A stretch of DNA of 48,317 bases from Leptolyngbyaceae cyanobacterium MAG.088 (lineage in GTDB: Bacteria; Cyanobacteriota; Cyanobacteriia; Phormidesmidales; Phormidesmidaceae). This document shows positions 28,365 to 47,336 of the stretch, piece after piece. The translations under genes were made by a program, and so were the position numbers. Location: positions 1 through 48,317 of the forward strand of contig JAHQVZ010000027.1 of the NCBI GenBank assembly GCA_019634055.1. Direction: 5' to 3'. The notes below the pieces were generated by a model. The model did not search any database and had not been told where the DNA came from. It saw only the letters and a program-made list of their open reading frames with translations. The number at the start of each line of letters is the position of its first letter. The stretch's first letter is position 1.

Positions 28365-29906
28365 GTGATAAGTGAATCAGCCAACTGCGTAGTTCGAGAT
28401 AACTCAACCTTTAATCAGTTACAGGCTCGGTTAACGACATGCTGGCAGCCTATAGATTGCTTTGATCGGGCTCCTAGGCAAATTTTAGTTGTGCCCTCCC
28501 TCAGTCTTGATCAAGAGGAACTGAGGAAGATAGAGGGGGTACATCATTATGAAGAGCGGTTGCTATTTGCCTTGCTTCACTTGCGTAACCCTAATACATC
28601 GCTAATTTATGTGACTTCTCAGCCGTTACATCCCAGCGTTGTGGATTACTATCTGGAATTACTGCCAGGGATTCCGAGTTCCCATGCTCAAAATCGGTTG
28701 CGTCTTTTTTCTACCTATGACGGTTCGCAACAGCCTTTAACTCAAAAGATTCTGCATCGTCCCCGTTTAGTGGAGCGTATTCGTCAGTGTCTTGCTCCTT
28801 CAGAAGCCTATATGGTTTGCTTCAACTCTACGGCCTGGGAGCAGCAGTTGGCCCTGTCATTAAATATTCCCCTAATGGCGTTATCGCCGATGCTGCTGAA
28901 TTTGGGAACTAAGGCGGGGAGTCGTGAGATTTTTGCGTCCTGTCATGTTCCACATCCCATGGGGAGTTGTCTTACGCACTGTGTTGAGGACTTGGCTACG
29001 GCTACGGCTCAGCTTTGGGAGCAGCTACCAGAATTAAAGCGGATTGTGATTAAGCTGAATGAGGGGTTCTCAGGGGAAGGGAATGCTTTGTTGCTGTTAG
29101 ATGAACTGGAAGCCGTAGCGCCTGGTAAGGCAACCCACGACGAAAGGGTAGTCAGGATACTTGAAGCCTTTAGGCATAACATGCGCTTTCAATATGTGCA
29201 TGAAACGTGGGGCCACTTTAGTAGAAAGATAGGAGAGTTGGGTGCGATCGCAGAAGCTTTTATCGAAGGTGACATCAAGCGTTCCCCCAGTGTTCAAGGC
29301 CACATTACCCCCTTTGGCGAGGTGGAAATCTTATCGACCCATGACCAAATCTTAGGGGGGCCAGATGGGCAAGTCTTTTTGGGGTGTCGGTTTCCTGCAG
29401 ATAAGGCCTATCGGATGGAATTGCAGAAAATGGGGCGTTGTGTTGGTGAGGCATTGGCACAGCGAGGAGCCTTGGAGCGATATAGCGTTGATTTTATTGC
29501 GGTGCAGCAAGCGGACCAAACGTGGGATTTAAATGCAATTGAAATTAATCTGCGTAAGGGGGGCACAACTCACCCTTTTATGGCTTTACAACTACTGACT
29601 AACGGTAGCTATAACCTAGAAGATGGGCAGTTTTACACACCCCAGGGCCAGCCCAAATACTATCGGGCCTCGGATAATTTACAAAAAGAGCAGTATAAGG
29701 GGTTGTTGCCCAATGATTTGATGGACATCATCATGATTGAGCAATTGCACTTTAATTCTATTGCCGGAACGGGGGCCGCATTTCACCTGATGGGATGCCT
29801 CTCGGAATATGGCAAGCTGGGTCTCACCTGTATTGGCAATAGCCCTGATGAAGCGGAGCAAATCTATGGGCAAGTTGTAACTGCCCTGGATAAGGAAACC
29901 AGCTAA
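28365..29906 (+). CDS. ATP-grasp carboxylate-amine ligase, PGM1-related
   Basis: 513-residue ATP-grasp protein resembling the PGM1 peptide ligase of pheganomycin synthesis and its uncharacterised cyanobacterial relatives. ATP-grasp signs are in the second half: KLNEGFSGEGNALLLL (nucleotide-binding lysine and glycine loop), AFIEGD, and the metal-binding acids in DLNAIEINLRKGGTTHPF. The N-terminal ~180 residues form a domain specific to this family (QILVVPSLSLD, YVTSQPLHPSV). GTG start with SD GAAGGGG. No precursor peptide or other natural-product gene is next to it, so substrate and product are unknown. Its stop codon lies in a 13-bp tandem repeat shared with smpB. Confidence 0.78.
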   Translation: MISESANCVVRDNSTFNQLQARLTTCWQPIDCFDRAPRQILVVPSLSLDQEELRKIEGVHHYEERLLFALLHLRNPNTSLIYVTSQPLHPSVVDYYLELLPGIPSSHAQNRLRLFSTYDGSQQPLTQKILHRPRLVERIRQCLAPSEAYMVCFNSTAWEQQLALSLNIPLMALSPMLLNLGTKAGSREIFASCHVPHPMGSCLTHCVEDLATATAQLWEQLPELKRIVIKLNEGFSGEGNALLLLDELEAVAPGKATHDERVVRILEAFRHNMRFQYVHETWGHFSRKIGELGAIAEAFIEGDIKRSPSVQGHITPFGEVEILSTHDQILGGPDGQVFLGCRFPADKAYRMELQKMGRCVGEALAQRGALERYSVDFIAVQQADQTWDLNAIEINLRKGGTTHPFMALQLLTNGSYNLEDGQFYTPQGQPKYYRASDNLQKEQYKGLLPNDLMDIIMIEQLHFNSIAGTGAAFHLMGCLSEYGKLGLTCIGNSPDEAEQIYGQVVTALDKETS

Positions 29907-30467: not shown

Positions 30468-30734
30468 CTATTCCACTACGACACACCATTCATGTAGCTC
30501 GTAGTTGACGCAGCCATTTTGGATCAAGGGATCGGCTTTGACAATGGCTTCAGCTTCCTCTAGAGAGGATGCCTGGAATAGCAGCATGCCGCCACCGCGC
30601 TCAGCCCAGTAACCGGTTTTAGCCTGGTGCCCCTTAGCAATCAGGTCCTTAACATAGGCCACATGGTCAGGTACAAACTGGTCAAATATGGGTTTATTGA
30701 CGATGCCACGTTCGATTTTGACAAACCAGACCAT
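30468..30734 (-). CDS. YciI-like (dimeric alpha-beta barrel) protein
   Basis: 88-residue small protein of the YciI family. Typical pattern: short N-terminal strand (WFVKIERG), PDHVAYVKDLIAKGH helix, the GGGMLLFQASSLEEAEAIVKADPLIQNG block, ending in a strand (YELHEWCVVVE). Enzyme activity is known for few members, and the conserved His (DHV) and Asp (ADP) of the putative active site are present. Upstream of smpB on the same strand with a 66-bp gap, possibly co-transcribed. Confidence 0.82.
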   Translation of the reverse strand: MVWFVKIERGIVNKPIFDQFVPDHVAYVKDLIAKGHQAKTGYWAERGGGMLLFQASSLEEAEAIVKADPLIQNGCVNYELHEWCVVVE

Positions 30735-30803: not shown

Positions 30804-31379
30804 ATGAATTCGCAGCGATTCTTCATCGCTCTGGTGCCACCCCCGGAGATTCAAGCGGCTGTCGATGATATTAAGGCCTACTTTAAGCAACAGTATGGGG
30901 CCAGTAAGGCCTTTAATTCACCGCCTCACATTACCCTGCAGGCTCCATTTGAGTGGTCTAAGGAACGGGCTTTAGATGAGTTGACTGCGGGGTTGAATGA
31001 GTTTGCTACTGGTCGGCATGAGGTTGCGATCGCACTCCGTAACTTTGGAGCCTTTCCTCCCAAAGTTATCTATGTTGATGTCATTCATAATCCAGCTTTA
31101 ATGGCCCTGCAAAAAGACTTAGCCAGATTTATGGAAGTCAACTATGGCATTATCGATCGCCGTTATAACCACTTCTGCCCCCATATGACTGTGGCCTTTC
31201 GGGATTTAACCAAAGCTGCCTTTGAGCAAGCATGGCCAGAGTTTGTCAAGAAAAAGATTGCATTTGACTTTACTGCGCAGAAAATGACTCTGCTGCACCA
31301 TAACGGTCAAAAATGGCAGGTTTATCAGGACTATTTTTTGCATAAAACTATGCCCTCTGCCAACTCAGATCAAGCCTGA
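30804..31379 (+). CDS. 2'-5' RNA ligase family protein (2H phosphoesterase)
   Basis: 191-residue 2H-type protein with both HxT motifs, His42-x-Thr44 (PPHITLQ) and His127-x-Thr129 (CPHMTVAF), spaced 85 residues apart as in the two-lobed fold. Relatives act as RNA 2',3'-cyclic phosphodiesterases or reversible 2'-5' ligases; the physiological RNA substrate is generally unclear. It faces the long DUF1593-PKD gene, whose probable terminator hairpin overlaps the final codons here (31351-31393). A decayed copy of this gene lies at about 35510-35910 in front of a second DUF1593 gene, showing that this pair was duplicated. Confidence 0.87.
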   Translation: MNSQRFFIALVPPPEIQAAVDDIKAYFKQQYGASKAFNSPPHITLQAPFEWSKERALDELTAGLNEFATGRHEVAIALRNFGAFPPKVIYVDVIHNPALMALQKDLARFMEVNYGIIDRRYNHFCPHMTVAFRDLTKAAFEQAWPEFVKKKIAFDFTAQKMTLLHHNGQKWQVYQDYFLHKTMPSANSDQA

Positions 31380-31393
31380 GTTGACAGAGGGCA
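31351..31393 (-). terminator. Hairpin between convergent ligase and DUF1593-PKD genes
   Basis: 17-bp arms (31351-31367 and 31377-31393) with one non-Watson-Crick position that is C-A on + but G-U on the - strand. In - sense it is followed by TAGTTTTATG, so it fits best as the terminator of the DUF1593-PKD gene (stop at 31463). It lies within the last nine codons of the ligase gene and may serve both. Confidence 0.65.
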
Positions 31394-31462
31394 TAGATTC
31401 CAGCCTGCATTAAAGTCTATGGCTGGAACTAAGGCATTAACCCAAGAGAAGTGGGTAAGACG

Positions 31463-34400
31463 TTAGGCCCTCCACACTTCGATGCCGCACATATTGAGAG
31501 CATCTGCTGCAAGAGTGCCTTGAACAACTAACTGTCCATTGGCAATGGAGACTGTGCCCAAATCAAGTTTTTGCCAGGTTCCTGCGGAGCCGGATGTACG
31601 ATTAGACAGGACATTGCTGCCATTGACAGTGACAGAGAAAGTGACACTGCTATTGTCCTCAAAGACCCACAGATAGACGCGGTAGTCACCGTTGGGCATG
31701 TTTTTCATGGTGACACTCACCGGTCTGCCCCAGATAAAGCTTTGGAGCATAGCCCTTGTCGAGCTATCTACAGTTGGGCTTGGGGACGTGGTGGTGACAT
31801 AGGTTTTACCAACGGTGGAATAGTTGGGAGCAGTTTTACTTTCAAAGGCGACACCATCGACAGAGAGGGCATTGCCATTGAAGTTAATGGCCCGATATAG
31901 GGTGCCAGCGCTATTATTGCCGCCGTCATTGCCGCCATCATTGCCATTATCCGGCGTGGATGCGCCTTCATTGACTGTGATGGTGACGGTATCGGTATCG
32001 GTGGCTCCGTTATCGTCGGTAACAGTTAACGTCAGAGTATGGACACCCACTGTCAGAGGAACGGAGGCTGATGCCGTAGAGGCCAGGGTGGTATTGCCCT
32101 CTTTCCAGACATAGGAAACGATGCTGCCATCGCTATCAGATGAGCCAGTGCCATTGAGGGTCACCGACTCAACGCCATCACCATTGGTATCGGTGACGGA
32201 TTGATTGGTGCCAGCATTGGCAACGGGTTCCTGATTTTGGGGTGGGGGATTGTTCCCATCATCCGCTCTCCACACTTCAATGGCGGATATATTAAGCACG
32301 CCCCGTGGCATTTCACTCTGGACCGCTAATTGACCATTGCTGATGGAGACTGTGCCAAGGTTAAGCCGTTGCCAAGTGCCAGTGCTGCCAGAATCAATAT
32401 TAGTCAAAACAGTCCTGTCATTGACTTTCAAAGAAAATGTGAAGCTACTTCCATTGATCTGAAAGACCCAAAGATAGACCTGGTAGTCTCCATCAGGAAC
32501 GCTGGTCATGGTGACGCTGGAACTTCGGCGTCGAATAAAGCTCTGAATTAAAGCCTTTTTATTAGTGCCCACAGAAGGTATGGGCACGATTTGGGAAACA
32601 AGGGGGTTCCCAAATGTGGAATAGTTGGAAGCACTTTTGCCTTCAAAGGCGACGCCATCGACAGAGATGGCATTGCCATTGAGGTTAATGGCCCGATACA
32701 GATTGCCAGCGTTAGTGGGTGGGGTATTTCCGCCATCATTTCCACCGTCATTGCCGCCGTCATTTCCACCGTCATTGCCGCCGTCGTTGTTGTCATCGTT
32801 GCCGCCATCATTGCCGCCATCATTGCCGTCGTCGTTGCCGTCATCCGGTGTGGATGCGCCTTCATTGACGGTGATGGTGACAGTATCAGTGTCGGTGGCC
32901 CCGTCATCGTCAGTAACAGTTAGCGTCAGAGCATGGACACCTACTGCCAAATTAACGGAGGCTGATGCTGTAGAGGCCAGGGTGGTATTGCCCTCTTTCC
33001 AGACATAGGAAACGATGCTGCCATCGCTATCAGATGAGCCAGTGCCATTGAGGGCAATTTGTTCGATGCCGTCGCCATCGGTATCGGTGACGGTTTGATT
33101 GGCTCCAGCATTGGCAACGGGGCCCTGATTTTGAGGGGGAGGATTATTTCCACCATCCGCTCTCCACACTTCAATGGCAGAAATATTGAGAGCATCCTGG
33201 GACAGATTGCCTTGAACAACTAATTGTCCATTGGCAATGGAGACTGTGCCCAAATCAAGTTTTTGCCAGGTTCCTGCGGAGCCGGATGTACGATTAGACA
33301 GGACATTGCTGCCATTGACAGTGACAGAGAAGGTGACACTGCTATTGTCCTCAAAGACCCACAGATAGACGCGGTAGTCACCGTTGGGCATGTTTTTCAT
33401 GGTGACACTCACCGGTCTGCCCCAGATAAAGCTTTGGAGCATAGCCCTTGTCGCGCTATCTACAGCCGGGGTAGGAGCAGTGGTAGTGACAAAGGTTTTA
33501 CCAACGGTGGAATAGTTGGGAGCAGTTTTGCCTTCAAAGGCGACACCGTCAACAGAGAGGGCGTTGCCATTCAGGTTAATGGCTCGATATAGGGTATCAG
33601 CGTTAGTGGGTGGGTTATTGCCATCGTCGTTGCCACCGTCGTTGCCGTCGTCATTTCCACTGTCGTTGCCGTCGTCATTTCCACTGTCGTTGCCGTCGTC
33701 ATTTCCACCGTCATTGCCATCATCTGGTGTAGATGCGCCTGCATTGACGGTGATGGTGACCGTATCGGTGGCTGTAGCACCTTTGTCATCGGTGACAATC
33801 AGAGTGAGGGTGTGGACGCCTACAGCGAGTTCGACTTCGACTGAGCCCGCTGAATTGAGCGTTGCCACTGTTGTGTTGCCATCTTTCCAAACATAGGAAA
33901 CGATACTGCCATCACCATCGGTTGAACCAGTGCCATTTAGAAATACTCGTTCAGAGCCATCACCGTCACTATCGGTGACGGTTTGATCGGGGCCTGCATT
34001 AGCTGTCGGCCCCTGATTTGGTGGTAGTACTGTTATCTGTACGTCATCGGTGTCTCGGGCTCCACAAACGTCGATCACTGTCAGACGAAATGTGTAGGTG
34101 CCTGCCACCAGGTTGGTAACCGTTATTTCTGGTGTGGTTGCCCCAGTAAAGCCAATATTGGGACCACTGATCTGTGTCCATTCATAGGATGCGATGCTAC
34201 ATCCCACATCTATCCCGGAACCTGTGAGCGTAACTCCACTGGTAGGTAGCTGAATGGATTTATCTGGCCCTGCATCAACCACGGGGGCATCACTTAATGG
34301 TTCATGGCCATATAACCGCATGACCTTTTGCATAAAAGCCTGATGCCAGGCGTTGCGTTGTGAGATGCAGGTACCAATGCGGGCAAGAAAAACATTTGTG

Positions 34401-35374
34401 GCGTTGTACCAGGTGTTGGCAGGATTGGCATAGTCCCATTCATAGCCGCCATCAATCCCGATCCAGTAGTTAGGTCTTTCGGGGAATGGGCGAACATATC
34501 TGCCAGCCCAGGAGCCTCGAGTTGGATCATTAAGGTTATTGGCAGGGTCGAGTAAGTAGAGGACTGAATTGGTATCTAATGCTCGGAAATAGTTTGGAAA
34601 GACCTGCTTTATATTGGCTCCAAGGGCACCTGCGTATTGTTTTAGTTGATCATTAAGAATGACGGCTTCATTAGCCACACGTAAATCTTCATTGAAAACC
34701 ATTCCCATCCAGGACCAGTCCATTTCCAACCACCAAAGATCTGGATAGTTATTCCAGATCCTCATGCGGGCATCGCCCCAGGCATTCCAGTTATATGTCT
34801 GACCATCGCCATTGGCTAATGCATTATCCAGAAGATAGGTGCCAATTGAAATGAGACGTATTTTGCTTCGTTCTGCAGAGGTAAGTTTTTCTAGACTCTG
34901 GGGAACGCGGTGGGTGCCTCCCCAGACCAACATGTAGATAGGTCGAGAGTCGGCAAGTTGTGCTTCTGCCTTGATGGTAGAAATCGCTTGGTCGTGACTG
35001 GTGAATAATTTTGTGCGAAGAGAGGATGGGGCAGGATAGTCTAATTCTTGGAATTTGTAGGCTGAATTGTTGTAGTCCTGTTCGTACAGGTCTAGGGCTA
35101 TTTGGGTGCCTGTAACACCGCTATTGATATCGTCGGGCCATATACCGCGTATATCTAATTCGTTGGCGTACATCATGAGATGTGCCATTGATTGTCTATC
35201 GTCTGGATCGCCGCTACCAACCTTGATATCGGAGATGACAACGACGCGTGGTCTTTGATTGAGAGGAATGATGCCCTGTGCTGATGCTCCAGTAATTGAT
35301 AACAGACCATTCTTGCCCCAGGAACCTGCGGCAAAACCTAGGAGGGAGTTTCTTAAAAAAGCTCGCCTATCCAT
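31463..35374 (-). CDS. Secreted DUF1593/Sde182-type protein with PKD and malectin-like repeats
   Basis: 1,303 residues, the largest gene here. The N-terminus MDRRAFLRNSLLG is a twin-arginine signal. Residues ~40-360 are the DUF1593 (cellulose-binding Sde182, nucleoside-hydrolase-like) domain: VVISDIKVGSGDPDDRQSM with the acidic cluster D49, D56, D58, D59, and VWGGTHRV. Then PKD 1 (~366-455), PKD 2 (~456-550), Asn/Asp/Gly linker, malectin-like 1 (594-739), PKD 3 (~745-835), linker, malectin-like 2 (891-1037), PKD 4 (~1043-1130), linker and malectin-like 3 (1158-1303). Likely an exported polysaccharide-binding or hydrolytic protein; activity unknown. Malectin modules 1 and 3 and PKDs 3 and 4 are near-identical in DNA. 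The downstream 35945-37042 gene is a short paralogue of the first domain. Confidence 0.85.
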   Translation of the reverse strand: MDRRAFLRNSLLGFAAGSWGKNGLLSITGASAQGIIPLNQRPRVVVISDIKVGSGDPDDRQSMAHLMMYANELDIRGIWPDDINSGVTGTQIALDLYEQDYNNSAYKFQELDYPAPSSLRTKLFTSHDQAISTIKAEAQLADSRPIYMLVWGGTHRVPQSLEKLTSAERSKIRLISIGTYLLDNALANGDGQTYNWNAWGDARMRIWNNYPDLWWLEMDWSWMGMVFNEDLRVANEAVILNDQLKQYAGALGANIKQVFPNYFRALDTNSVLYLLDPANNLNDPTRGSWAGRYVRPFPERPNYWIGIDGGYEWDYANPANTWYNATNVFLARIGTCISQRNAWHQAFMQKVMRLYGHEPLSDAPVVDAGPDKSIQLPTSGVTLTGSGIDVGCSIASYEWTQISGPNIGFTGATTPEITVTNLVAGTYTFRLTVIDVCGARDTDDVQITVLPPNQGPTANAGPDQTVTDSDGDGSERVFLNGTGSTDGDGSIVSYVWKDGNTTVATLNSAGSVEVELAVGVHTLTLIVTDDKGATATDTVTITVNAGASTPDDGNDGGNDDGNDSGNDDGNDSGNDDGNDGGNDDGNNPPTNADTLYRAINLNGNALSVDGVAFEGKTAPNYSTVGKTFVTTTAPTPAVDSATRAMLQSFIWGRPVSVTMKNMPNGDYRVYLWVFEDNSSVTFSVTVNGSNVLSNRTSGSAGTWQKLDLGTVSIANGQLVVQGNLSQDALNISAIEVWRADGGNNPPPQNQGPVANAGANQTVTDTDGDGIEQIALNGTGSSDSDGSIVSYVWKEGNTTLASTASASVNLAVGVHALTLTVTDDDGATDTDTVTITVNEGASTPDDGNDDGNDGGNDGGNDDNNDGGNDGGNDGGNDGGNDGGNTPPTNAGNLYRAINLNGNAISVDGVAFEGKSASNYSTFGNPLVSQIVPIPSVGTNKKALIQSFIRRRSSSVTMTSVPDGDYQVYLWVFQINGSSFTFSLKVNDRTVLTNIDSGSTGTWQRLNLGTVSISNGQLAVQSEMPRGVLNISAIEVWRADDGNNPPPQNQEPVANAGTNQSVTDTNGDGVESVTLNGTGSSDSDGSIVSYVWKEGNTTLASTASASVPLTVGVHTLTLTVTDDNGATDTDTVTITVNEGASTPDNGNDGGNDGGNNSAGTLYRAINFNGNALSVDGVAFESKTAPNYSTVGKTYVTTTSPSPTVDSSTRAMLQSFIWGRPVSVTMKNMPNGDYRVYLWVFEDNSSVTFSVTVNGSNVLSNRTSGSAGTWQKLDLGTVSIANGQLVVQGTLAADALNMCGIEVWRA
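32061..33054 (-). repeat. Near-identical 100-bp direct repeats (PKD modules 4 and 3)
   Basis: 32061-32160 and 32955-33054 match over 100 bp with one difference (C/T in ATGCCGTAG versus ATGCTGTAG). Adjacent sequence is diverged, again pointing to local conversion between modules of the same gene. Confidence 0.82.
32727..32846 (-). repeat. Low-complexity tract encoding Asn-Asp-Gly linker (linker after PKD 3)
   Basis: Imperfect 12/24-bp tandem units (TTGCCGCC-GTCATTTCCACC-type on +) that encode DGGNDGGND-type repeats. Runs between the PKD and malectin-like modules; expected to vary in copy number. Confidence 0.8.
33614..33726 (-). repeat. Tandem 24-bp repeat encoding Asn-Asp-Gly linker (linker after PKD 2)
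   Basis: Three 24-bp units at 33641-33664, 33665-33688 (identical) and 33689-33712 (one change), flanked by related half units; the translation is NDSGNDDG-like. A shorter tract of the same type is at 31913-31952. Confidence 0.85.
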
Positions 35375-35599
35375 GGATTTTCTCCTAATACTTATGAATG
35401 CGGATACTTATGGATGCGGAGATGCTACAGGGAAATACAGATCACAAGCTTTGCGGAAAAAATAATTGCCAGGTTAAGAAAGGTATCGGCAATGCTTCAT
35501 CGTTAGCTTATGGATCCGCAGAATTTCTTCATCGTTCTTTTATCCCCTCCGGAAGTTCAGACTTACATCCATGAGATTAAAGGTTGTGCTTATATTTCC

Positions 35600-35619
35600 A
35601 TGAGCGCCATGGCGCTCAT
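35600..35619. repeat. Perfect 20-bp palindrome in ligase pseudogene
   Basis: ATGAGCGCCATGGCGCTCAT is fully self-complementary. The intact gene has no palindrome at the aligned place, though length there is nearly conserved. Confidence 0.8.
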
Positions 35620-35647
35620 AGGGCTTTGAATCCTTAGCCTCACAGCA

Positions 35648-35697
35648 TTAACGTCTTCAGTTTGAGTGGTCTCATGCGCTCAAACTGAAGACGTTAA
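35648..35697. repeat. Perfect 19-bp inverted repeat in ligase pseudogene
   Basis: Arms 35648-35666 and 35679-35697 (TTAACGTCTTCAGTTTGAG and its exact complement) with a 12-nt loop. No T-run follows. The left arm aligns to the intact ligase gene; the right arm does not, so the right arm seems to have been copied from the left. Confidence 0.8.
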
Positions 35698-35944
35698 CCC
35701 ATGGGGTGAACTATTTTATTGTGAGGATATAAAAAATAGGAGCGCATCCATACTTTTGGGGACTTTTGCCCAAAACTCATCGTTATGGATGGCATGCATA
35801 ATTCAGATGTAATGGCTTTATATCAAGCCTCTGACATATCTATGGCAGCCAAATTAACTTAGTCAGTTGCAATCTGACCTAACGCCGCTTTTCATCACGT
35901 ATGGTCAAATTTTCATAGAAAAGCCTTAGTGTTTGGCTTTACGG

Positions 35945-37042
35945 TCAAGTATTTGATGCATTTGGTTCCTGGCCATAGAGTTCTAGAACCTTTTGCATGA
36001 ATGCCTGATGCCATACATTGCGTTGAGAGATGCAGGTATTAATTCGAGCCGTGAAAACATCCCTGGCATTTTGCCAGGTCCTGGCAGGGTTGGCATAGTC
36101 CCATTCATGGCCGCCATCGATACCCGTGTAATAGTTTGGTCTTTCAGAAAAGGGACTGTAATATCTTCCTGCCCATGAGCCCCTCGTTGGATCATCAACA
36201 TCATTGGATGAATCCAGCAGGTACAGCAAAGAATTGGTATCCAAGGCTCGAAAGTATTTAGGAAAGACCTCTGTGATATGTGCCCCCAGAGCTCCGGCTT
36301 TTTGAGCTAAAAAGTCATTAAGCACCTTGGTTTCGTCAGCTATCTTCAGGTCCTGATTAAAAACCATGCCATTCCACGACCAGTCCATTTCCAGCCACCA
36401 TAGGTCAGGAAAGCGATTCCAAATATCCATGCGTGCCTCGCCCCAGGCATTCCAGTTATATTTTTGGCCGTCGCCATCGGCCAGGGCATTGTCTCGCAGA
36501 TAGGTGCCGATGGAAATAAGCCGTATCTTGCTTTGTTCTATAGGGGTAAGTTTTTCTAAGCTTTGGGTAACCCGATGTGTGCCTCCCCAGACCAGCATGT
36601 ACAGCGGCCGAGGATCGTTAACACTGGCCTCTGCTTTGACGGCAGCAATAGCCTGATCGTGGCTAGTCAATAACTTTGAGCGCAGATGTGAGGGGGGAGG
36701 GTAGTTAAGGTCTGGAAACTTATAGTCTGGAGTGTTGTAGTCCTGTTCGTAACGATCAAGAACCATTTGAGTTCCTTCAAGACCGCTATCAAGGCTGTCG
36801 GGCCAAATGCCCAAGATATCTACTTCATTGGCGTACATCATTAAGTGCGCCATCGACTGTCGATCGTCTGGGTCGCCTTTGCCAACCCGAATGTCAGAAA
36901 TGACTAAGATTCGTGGCTTGTTACTGAGAGGTTCTCTTGTTTGGTCTTCTGCTTCGGAAATAGGCCGGAGGCTATTGGCTGGGCTGCAAGAACCCATAGC
37001 AAGACCGATGAGCGAGTTCCTCAAAAAAGCTCGCCTATCCAT
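35945..37042 (-). CDS. Secreted DUF1593/Sde182-type protein, short paralogue
   Basis: 365 residues, only the N-terminal domain of the neighbouring 1,303-residue protein. Starts MDRRAFLRNSLIGLAMGSCSP: twin-arginine signal, with a Cys after the hydrophobic stretch that might be lipidated (weak lipobox). The acidic signature SDIRVGKGDPDDRQSM and VWGGTHRVTQSLEKLTP are kept, and the two domains look about two-thirds or more identical by eye. It ends at YGQEPNASNT, where the long protein continues into PKD modules. An SD-like TTAGGAGAA precedes both paralogues. Function unknown; predicted secreted, nucleoside-hydrolase-like fold. Confidence 0.83.
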   Translation of the reverse strand: MDRRAFLRNSLIGLAMGSCSPANSLRPISEAEDQTREPLSNKPRILVISDIRVGKGDPDDRQSMAHLMMYANEVDILGIWPDSLDSGLEGTQMVLDRYEQDYNTPDYKFPDLNYPPPSHLRSKLLTSHDQAIAAVKAEASVNDPRPLYMLVWGGTHRVTQSLEKLTPIEQSKIRLISIGTYLRDNALADGDGQKYNWNAWGEARMDIWNRFPDLWWLEMDWSWNGMVFNQDLKIADETKVLNDFLAQKAGALGAHITEVFPKYFRALDTNSLLYLLDSSNDVDDPTRGSWAGRYYSPFSERPNYYTGIDGGHEWDYANPARTWQNARDVFTARINTCISQRNVWHQAFMQKVLELYGQEPNASNT

Positions 37043-37107
37043 GGGCTGATTCTCCTAAAGGGTTAAGTGCGAATACTTTAAGCGCAGTAAAAACTACGGG
37101 CACCCCC

Positions 37108-37737
37108 TTATTCTTCTCGATATTTCCAGGCGGCCTGGAAAAAGTCTCGCTCACACACCATGGCGTAGCGATAGGTGGAACGAATTAACGCATTATCAGT
37201 GGCGTAGTCATCCACGATGGCCTCTAATTGAGCGGCTAAGGGTTCAAACTCGTCACTGCTGTAGGTGGCAATCCAATCTTTGTAGATATGCTCTGGAATG
37301 CCATTTTGCGCAAGCTGCTGACCCAAATAGGCATACAGACGCATGCAGGGCGACATAGCAACGGCTGTAACACCAATGGGTTGGCTCCAGGCGGTTGCGA
37401 GCAAAAAATCTGTATATTGCCGCGTGGCTGTGCCTGGGCTTACCAGAGCTAAATCTACATGCCAGGTCTGGGCATAGCTCTGGTGTAATTTTAGTTCTGA
37501 CAGCACCCCAGCAGCCAAATCATGGAATACATTAAAGCTTTGCCAGGAGGGGGCTTTAGCTGCTGCAATGCTATAGGCTCGGGCAAAGGCTTCTAAAAAG
37601 AATGCGTCCTGGCCCACATAGTAGGCAAAGGTTTCCTTGGGCAATGTGCCATTTGCAATGCCTTGTACAAACGGATGGGCAAGGCTTTCATTGGCAAGGT
37701 CCATGTGGTCTTGCCAAAGCTTAGAAGAAAGGGCCAT
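37108..37737 (-). CDS. tenA: TenA family protein (thiaminase II-like)
   Basis: 209-residue TenA/THI-4 helical protein. In characterised TenA the active-site Cys cleaves or salvages aminopyrimidines from degraded thiamin; here Cys131 (AVAMSPCMRLYAYLG) and Asp44 (YYVGQDAFFL) occupy the expected places, as do the KDWIATYSSDEF and FFQAAW blocks. So it is the TenA_C rather than the TenA_E type. Divergent from prfB with a 92-bp gap. No thiamin riboswitch was recognised upstream. Confidence 0.85.
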   Translation of the reverse strand: MALSSKLWQDHMDLANESLAHPFVQGIANGTLPKETFAYYVGQDAFFLEAFARAYSIAAAKAPSWQSFNVFHDLAAGVLSELKLHQSYAQTWHVDLALVSPGTATRQYTDFLLATAWSQPIGVTAVAMSPCMRLYAYLGQQLAQNGIPEHIYKDWIATYSSDEFEPLAAQLEAIVDDYATDNALIRSTYRYAMVCERDFFQAAWKYREE

Positions 37738-47259: not shown

Positions 47260-47336
47260 ATAGGAACCGCCTAAACCAAATAGGTTTAGGCGGAGTGTGG
47301 TGTGAGGAGTGAACGGAAACTTCCGTCTCCGCTTTC
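47260..47336 (-). ncRNA. yfr1: Yfr1 small regulatory RNA
   Basis: On the - strand the invariant Yfr1 core ACTCCTCACAC sits at 47310-47300, unpaired between a 5' hairpin (ACGGAA/TTCCGT, 47326-47313) and a 3' terminator-like stem CCGCCTAAACC/GGTTTAGGCGG (47293-47267, 11 bp). A -10 box TACAAT at 47348-47343 and a TGGCAA-like -35 about 16 bp upstream suggest a start near 47336, so the RNA would be about 75 nt. Yfr1 is known between guaB and trxA in cyanobacteria, exactly as here, and acts by base pairing with mRNAs via its core. Ends are estimates. Confidence 0.87.

Follow-up and report, generated by a model that had tools for sequence, protein, structure and literature searches.

A gene resembling a 2'-5' RNA ligase that faces a DUF1593 gene twice in a row, with one of the two ligases decayed, raises the question of when and from which copy the repeated arrangement arose, and of whether the two genes belong together. 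Such a locus lies in the window analysed here, a stretch of 48,317 nucleotides (contig JAHQVZ010000027.1) from the marine cyanobacterium Leptolyngbyaceae cyanobacterium MAG.088, whose genome comprises 5.1 Mb in 377 contigs and is 91.7% complete. In this study, the locus was compared with those of seven other Leptothoe-type cyanobacteria (G001-G007), which together with the window genome form a genus sample of eight. The comparison indicates that a ligase-DUF1593 stretch was probably duplicated in tandem long ago, and that two species later lost opposite ligase copies and kept the DUF1593 copies. Within the sample, G005 is Leptothoe kymatousa TAU-MAC 1615 (hereafter kymatousa), G007 is Leptolyngbya sp. 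Heron Island J and G001 is a 70% complete genome; G008 and G021 are genomes outside the genus, in which the DUF1593 matches are 25-28% identical. PMC8225149 gives the DUF1593-bearing Heron Island J as free-living. A literature search at the level of listings returned no paper on this locus and none for the term 'DUF1593'.

An earlier note, made from the sequence of the window alone, had described a plus-strand ligase facing a minus-strand DUF1593 gene twice in a row, and this order, orientation and the coordinates were confirmed. The features of the locus, in window positions, are as follows.

30468..30734, minus strand: YCII-domain gene (PF03795), left neighbour of the unit, often kept beside the ligase by synteny
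30804..31379, plus strand: Lig1, intact 2H-superfamily phosphoesterase, '2'-5' RNA ligase'-like (PF13563, PF02834)
31463..35374, minus strand: DUFlong, 1303 aa, Sde182/DUF1593 nucleoside-hydrolase-like domain with PKD repeats and three 140-residue modules (PF07632)
35375..35509, no strand: spacer from the start of DUFlong to the start of the decayed ligase, common with the kymatousa DUFlong1-ligase spacer
35510..35964, plus strand: Lig2 pseudogene, its 3' end overlapping the 3' end of DUFshort
35945..37042, minus strand: DUFshort, 365 aa, single-module Sde182/DUF1593 protein (PF07632)
37043..37107, no strand: spacer between DUFshort and TenA, common with kymatousa
37108..37737, minus strand: TenA-like gene (PF03070), right neighbour

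Further to the left, an ATP-grasp protein (28365-29906) matched PF24923 (PGM1_C), with the BesA ligase model matched below its cut-off; its gene adjoins SmpB in those genus loci that reach far enough. The cyanobacterial small RNA Yfr1 was identified at 47265-47332 on the minus strand (Rfam, above the gathering score). No other Rfam match in the window reached the gathering score, and an RNA element at the ligase/DUF1593 locus was therefore rejected.

The intact ligase matched PF13563 (E 7.2e-22) and PF02834 (E 2.6e-13) in Pfam. The HxT motif is characteristic of 2H phosphoesterases, and two such motifs were read by eye in Lig1, at residues 42-44 and 127-129. Its nearest relative in the PDB is 2d4g (BSU11850; E 1.9e-9, residues 10-179), which carries the name YjcG, and we take Lig1 to be YjcG-like, as it shares both motifs and near whole-length similarity with phosphoesterases of this type. 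Unlike the named NCBIfam equivalogs, Lig1 scored below the cut-offs of TIGR02258 (RNA 2',3'-cyclic phosphodiesterase; 47.5 bits against 65.7) and NF010223, and it was therefore assigned to neither. Identity within the genus is 72% to the ligases of G003/G004 and 69% to that of Heron Island J. A 24-base inverted repeat, 92% complementary, spans the Lig1 stop codon at 31345-31399, between the convergent Lig1 and DUFlong, and looks like a two-way terminator.

Lig2 is a pseudogene, as the earlier note had it: it starts MDPQNFFIVLLSPPEV and meets a TGA after 39 codons, its body, rich in stops, runs across several frames, the second HxT motif has been lost, and no working reading frame carrying two HxT motifs is present. 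When the Lig1 protein was searched against the window by tblastn, Lig2 was matched in two collinear pieces (E 4e-8). The nucleotide similarity of the two genes, proposed earlier as a check, was found by blastn (115 columns, 69%, E 2.4e-6) and with a DNA profile of six genus ligases including Lig1, which matched 35491-35964 (E 9.8e-46). The Smith-Waterman score of Lig2 against Lig1 was 45, whereas none of 300 dinucleotide shuffles scored above a maximum of 28; against the Heron Island J ligase alone the same shuffle test was weak (score 26, reached by 12 of 300 shuffles). The similarity of Lig2 to Lig1 is beyond chance. Of the extent proposed earlier the start at 35510 stands, and the end, placed at about 35910, runs slightly further, to about 35960. 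Lig2 also contains an inverted repeat (35648-35697) whose 19-base arms match perfectly around a 12-base loop. Its arm was found nowhere else in the 91.7%-complete genome with up to two mismatches allowed, and a dispersed element was rejected, a 174-base query having matched only itself and its own palindrome; the repeat may have arisen by a template switch during decay.

Both DUF1593 proteins matched PF07632 (Sde182_NH-like), DUFlong at E 2.1e-19 and 70.5 bits and DUFshort at E 1.2e-22 and 81.2 bits, against a gathering score of 26.8. Their DUF1593 domains are 72% identical to each other, and DUFshort is 76% identical to the Heron Island J copy and 75% to the short copy of kymatousa. The PKD modules attributed to DUFlong in the earlier note were recovered as four K319L-like PKD stretches in Pfam; the malectin modules were not, since no model matched at E 0.001, the three 140-residue modules included. 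Of these three modules (window 31463-33600) the first and third have 127 of 140 residues in common without gaps, and the middle one shares 53 and 51 with the others, a pattern suggestive of recent internal copying or conversion. Long forms occur in three of the eight genus genomes (the window, kymatousa with two copies, and G001). The long proteins of kymatousa have 994 and 977 aa and that of G001 has 987 aa; the window's DUFlong, at 1303 aa, has one PKD stretch more. The PKD modules predate the split between the window strain and kymatousa.

To compare gene contents, the slot was defined as the interval between the YCII gene (minus) and the TenA gene (minus), in window orientation.

Window: Lig1, DUFlong, decayed Lig2, DUFshort
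Kymatousa: DUFlong2, DUFlong1, ligase, DUFshort
Heron Island J: ligase, then one single-module DUF1593 facing it
G003 and G004: ligase only, directly facing TenA, no DUF1593
G002: Uma2-family gene and a ligase C-terminal remnant (locus L048, 8293-8946 and 8979-9056)

The Heron Island J slot is a single-module locus of the kind that the earlier note had suggested searching for among relatives. The C-terminal remnant in G002 indicates that the ligase was lost there too. In G006 the ligase is on one contig and TenA on another, and the ends of these contigs are alike at 33 of 35 bases (counted by eye), so that the two genes most likely adjoin there; no DUF1593 match was found in that genome. The 70% complete G001 gave no match to TenA or the ligase. 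One intact ligase is present in six of the eight genomes and two in none, and DUF1593 is present in four. The species order is weakly resolved (58), and loss of DUF1593 in G003/G004 is therefore possible.

Both ligase slots are present in only two genomes, those of the window strain and kymatousa, and the comparison between them identifies which copy is which. The one working ligase of kymatousa sits in the slot of the window's Lig2, with a matching spacer and 5' end: Lig2 with its preceding spacer aligned to the kymatousa spacer and the 5' end of the working ligase with a score of 150 over 177 columns, compared with 45 to the window's own ligase and a null maximum of 30. Over the first 86 aligned columns of Lig2, 17 sites are shared with kymatousa only and 2 with the own ligase only (p 7e-4); in the remaining columns, the body of the pseudogene, the counts are 41 and 45, which is no preference. 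Identity over all 426 columns is 62.2% to kymatousa, 61.5% to G003 and 59.6% to the own ligase. In the ligase tree from all columns Lig2 pairs with the kymatousa ligase (SH-aLRT 95.7, bootstrap 83), and the AU test also keeps a pairing of Lig2 with the own ligase (p 0.12). Lig2 was earlier taken to be a decayed copy of the window's own ligase; its 5' end and spacer side instead with the kymatousa ligase. At that end Lig2 would be kin of kymatousa's working ligase and not a decayed copy of Lig1.

The reciprocal trace is found in kymatousa. Its Lig1 slot, the spacer between YCII and DUFlong2, holds a remnant of about 70 bases corresponding to the old upstream region and first codons, with a score of 52 against a null maximum of 28; for each of five reference ligases, none of 300 shuffles reached the score. 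In the DNA profile this remnant reached E 0.027, below the inclusion threshold. A different ligase copy has thus most likely been lost in each lineage, with remnants in matching places, Lig2 in the window and Lig1 in kymatousa. A third trace, between the two long genes of kymatousa, is weak: its score was reached by 1, 2, 2, 8 and 263 of 300 shuffles against the ligases of kymatousa, G003, G006, Heron Island J and the window, respectively, and nhmmer gave E 0.0016 with the spacer alone searched and 1.2 with six sequences searched. The spacers before DUFlong and before DUFshort are each common to the window and kymatousa, with neither score reached in 500 shuffles (score 36 for that at the start of DUFlong). 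In the spacer between DUFshort and TenA 32 of 37 aligned bases are the same in both genomes; this likeness was not found in Heron Island J, whose spacer is much shorter.

When the DUF1593 tree was built without an outgroup, all four long domains fell into a single clade (100/100), the window and kymatousa short copies pair (100/98), the Heron Island J copy lies in between, and the two long copies of kymatousa pair (86/94). The nearest relatives of DUFlong are therefore the long copies of kymatousa and G001, and those of DUFshort are the kymatousa short copy and the single copy of Heron Island J. A constraint tree joining the three kymatousa copies was rejected (delta lnL 71.6). With a Flammeovirga outgroup the support of the long clade fell to 81/100 and the short copies were without supported grouping. 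Rooting with G008/G021, or with the very distant Flammeovirga and Indioceanicola, settled no root; all of the four constraints placed on the root were kept (AU p 0.22-0.69), the Heron Island J gene as a pre-duplication copy being among the placements, and two of the four led to an identical tree. The single DUF1593 of Heron Island J may be such a pre-duplication copy or a later collapse. As the root choices were all kept and the long form is spread over three genomes, the earlier proposal that one copy of the window gained its PKD and malectin modules after the duplication is not supported. Over six pairs of DUF1593 copies dN/dS was 0.06-0.14 with dS of 1.1-2.6; the copies look constrained, and the ratios are rough as dS is high.

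Outside the genus, 33 genomes had a ligase match and loci were obtained from 24 of them (L016-L039). At least 14 of the 24 have SmpB and YCII next to the ligase, and at least four have TenA within the stretch, counts that are lower bounds as the loci span no more than about 3.5 kb and some end at contig ends. The SmpB-YCII-ligase block is kept without DUF1593 in other genera. In the phylum sample any DUF1593 match was found in 2 of 386 genomes, the own genome and G008 (26%). G021 gave a weak match similar to that of G008, and a short peptide pattern scan of genome contigs identified two loci, both Leptothoe. In a search confined to plasmid records, the nearest homologue found outside the genus is a single-module protein of 349 aa from Flammeovirga kamogawensis (33%), the neighbours of which are SusD-like and TonB-receptor genes, GH26, GH130 and an epimerase.

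These results bear on how the second unit was acquired. A tandem duplication that took place recently in this genome, after which one ligase decayed and one DUF1593 gene acquired modules, would account for a unit present twice in a row, and it is scarcely credible and was rejected: in the tree the window's two DUF1593 genes are not each other's closest relatives (delta lnL 75.8 for the constraint placing them together), a result that the earlier note had named as refuting its reading, and the long and short forms are common to other species. It is unlikely that the second ligase-DUF1593 segment was instead imported from another Leptothoe-like lineage and recombined at the ligase, which would make Lig1 and Lig2, and the long and short genes, xenologues. 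Such an import would fit the strong divergence of the window's short and long genes (dS 1.37) and their upstream regions, which are not significantly alike (score reached by 39 of 500 shuffles), so that the duplication joints are not visible. It would also fit G001, where one DUFlong lies at another place and hence has moved at least once; there it is flanked by direct copies of a dispersed repeat (L044, 2878-2971 and 6601-6694; two 33-base pieces in register over 94 bases), the 26-base core of which has 29 copies in that genome compared with none for a reversed control. Against import stand the same order and spacers in the window and kymatousa, and the phylum sample, which holds no close DUF1593 outside the genus.

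It is also very improbable that ligase and DUF1593 form a functional pair, joining for example RNA-end processing to nucleoside salvage, whose staying and duplicating together would reflect selection. The two adjoin in three of the four DUF1593-bearing genus genomes, but G003, G004 and G006 have the ligase with no DUF1593 match in the genome, and the G001 DUFlong has no ligase beside it. Moreover, the ligases decay and the DUF1593 copies stay, an export-type N-terminus was seen by eye in DUF1593 and none in the ligase, and the ligase keeps its place beside SmpB and YCII in other genera. Functional coupling was rejected on this synteny, within and outside the genus. As the ligase keeps its place elsewhere in the absence of DUF1593, the pairing most likely follows from where DUF1593 landed; the two are neighbours by position, and a functional link is unnecessary to explain them.

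The preferred reading remains the old duplication with reciprocal ligase loss, and it agrees with the earlier note in that ligase and DUF1593 were best explained as duplicated in one stretch. Because the ligase occurs without DUF1593 in several genomes of the genus and throughout the rest of the family sample, a DUF1593 gene would have settled between a resident ligase gene and tenA. The ligase-DUF1593 stretch would then have been tandemly duplicated in the ancestor of the window strain and kymatousa, giving Lig1-DUFlong-Lig2-DUFshort; the shared order and spacers and the trees argue for this ancestor, and the window's two DUF1593 genes not being closest relatives argues for a duplication older than the split of the two lines. 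Two working ligases would have been redundant, so that each line let a different one decay, the window strain Lig2 and kymatousa Lig1. The DUF1593 copies would have been kept, DUFlong probably being copied again in kymatousa. The better-kept 5' part of Lig2 lies directly upstream of the oppositely read DUFlong, and the DUFlong promoter may therefore hold it in place. A broader version, which we regard as tentative and somewhat doubtful, is that amplification of the ligase-DUF1593 segment recurs, with the ligase as disposable ballast: kymatousa would have reached three units, the very weak trace between its two long genes belonging to the third, each lineage would keep exactly one ligase, though not always in the same place, and the expansion would be driven by selection for the dosage or variety of exported sugar-binding DUF1593 proteins.

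As to function, the N-terminus of DUFshort (MDRRAFLRNSL) is twin-arginine-like by eye. The nearest solved relative by sequence is PDB 2yhg (Saccharophagus degradans Sde_0182; E 1.1e-7). A structure model was poor (mean pLDDT 58.5) with 2yhg as the top fold match, and its fold matches agree with the family assigned by sequence. The acidic residues D50, D57, D59 and D60 are invariant in six aligned Leptothoe DUF1593 copies. As described in PMC8910321, the nucleoside-hydrolase-like domain of Sde_0182, which the window copies share with scores above the cut-off, retains calcium and binds ribofuranose, and it shows no activity on nucleosides. DUFlong differs from Sde_0182 in that its PKD and other modules follow this domain, whereas the other domains of Sde_0182 named in that source precede it. 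The Sde0182_C domain gave no match in the seven genus copies scanned and is present in G008. The DUF1593 proteins are thus most likely exported proteins of the Sde_0182 type that bind calcium and a furanose or polysaccharide, with extra modules in the long form, and the sugar-use neighbourhood in Flammeovirga fits this predicted role. A PADLOC search of three proteins at E 0.01 gave no match, and an antiphage role was rejected. The ligase appears to be a 2H phosphoesterase carried along by position.

The event resembles divergent resolution, or reciprocal loss, a well-known kind of event for which the former term is used mostly with genome duplications. Here likewise one ancestral duplicate is represented by different copies in two species, with the lost copies as remnants in matching places; the difference is that a bacterial tandem pair is concerned, and that one gene of a two-gene unit is resolved while the other is kept in both copies. 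The case is ordinary in kind and unusually clear in detail, with evidence from both sides. As two related bacteria kept different tandem copies, the analysis indicates that the single working ligases of the locus are not orthologous between the window strain and kymatousa, a case of hidden paralogy that can mislead gene trees and orthology assignments based on synteny. The duplicated stretch, moreover, separates a gene that is kept, DUF1593, from its passenger, the ligase.
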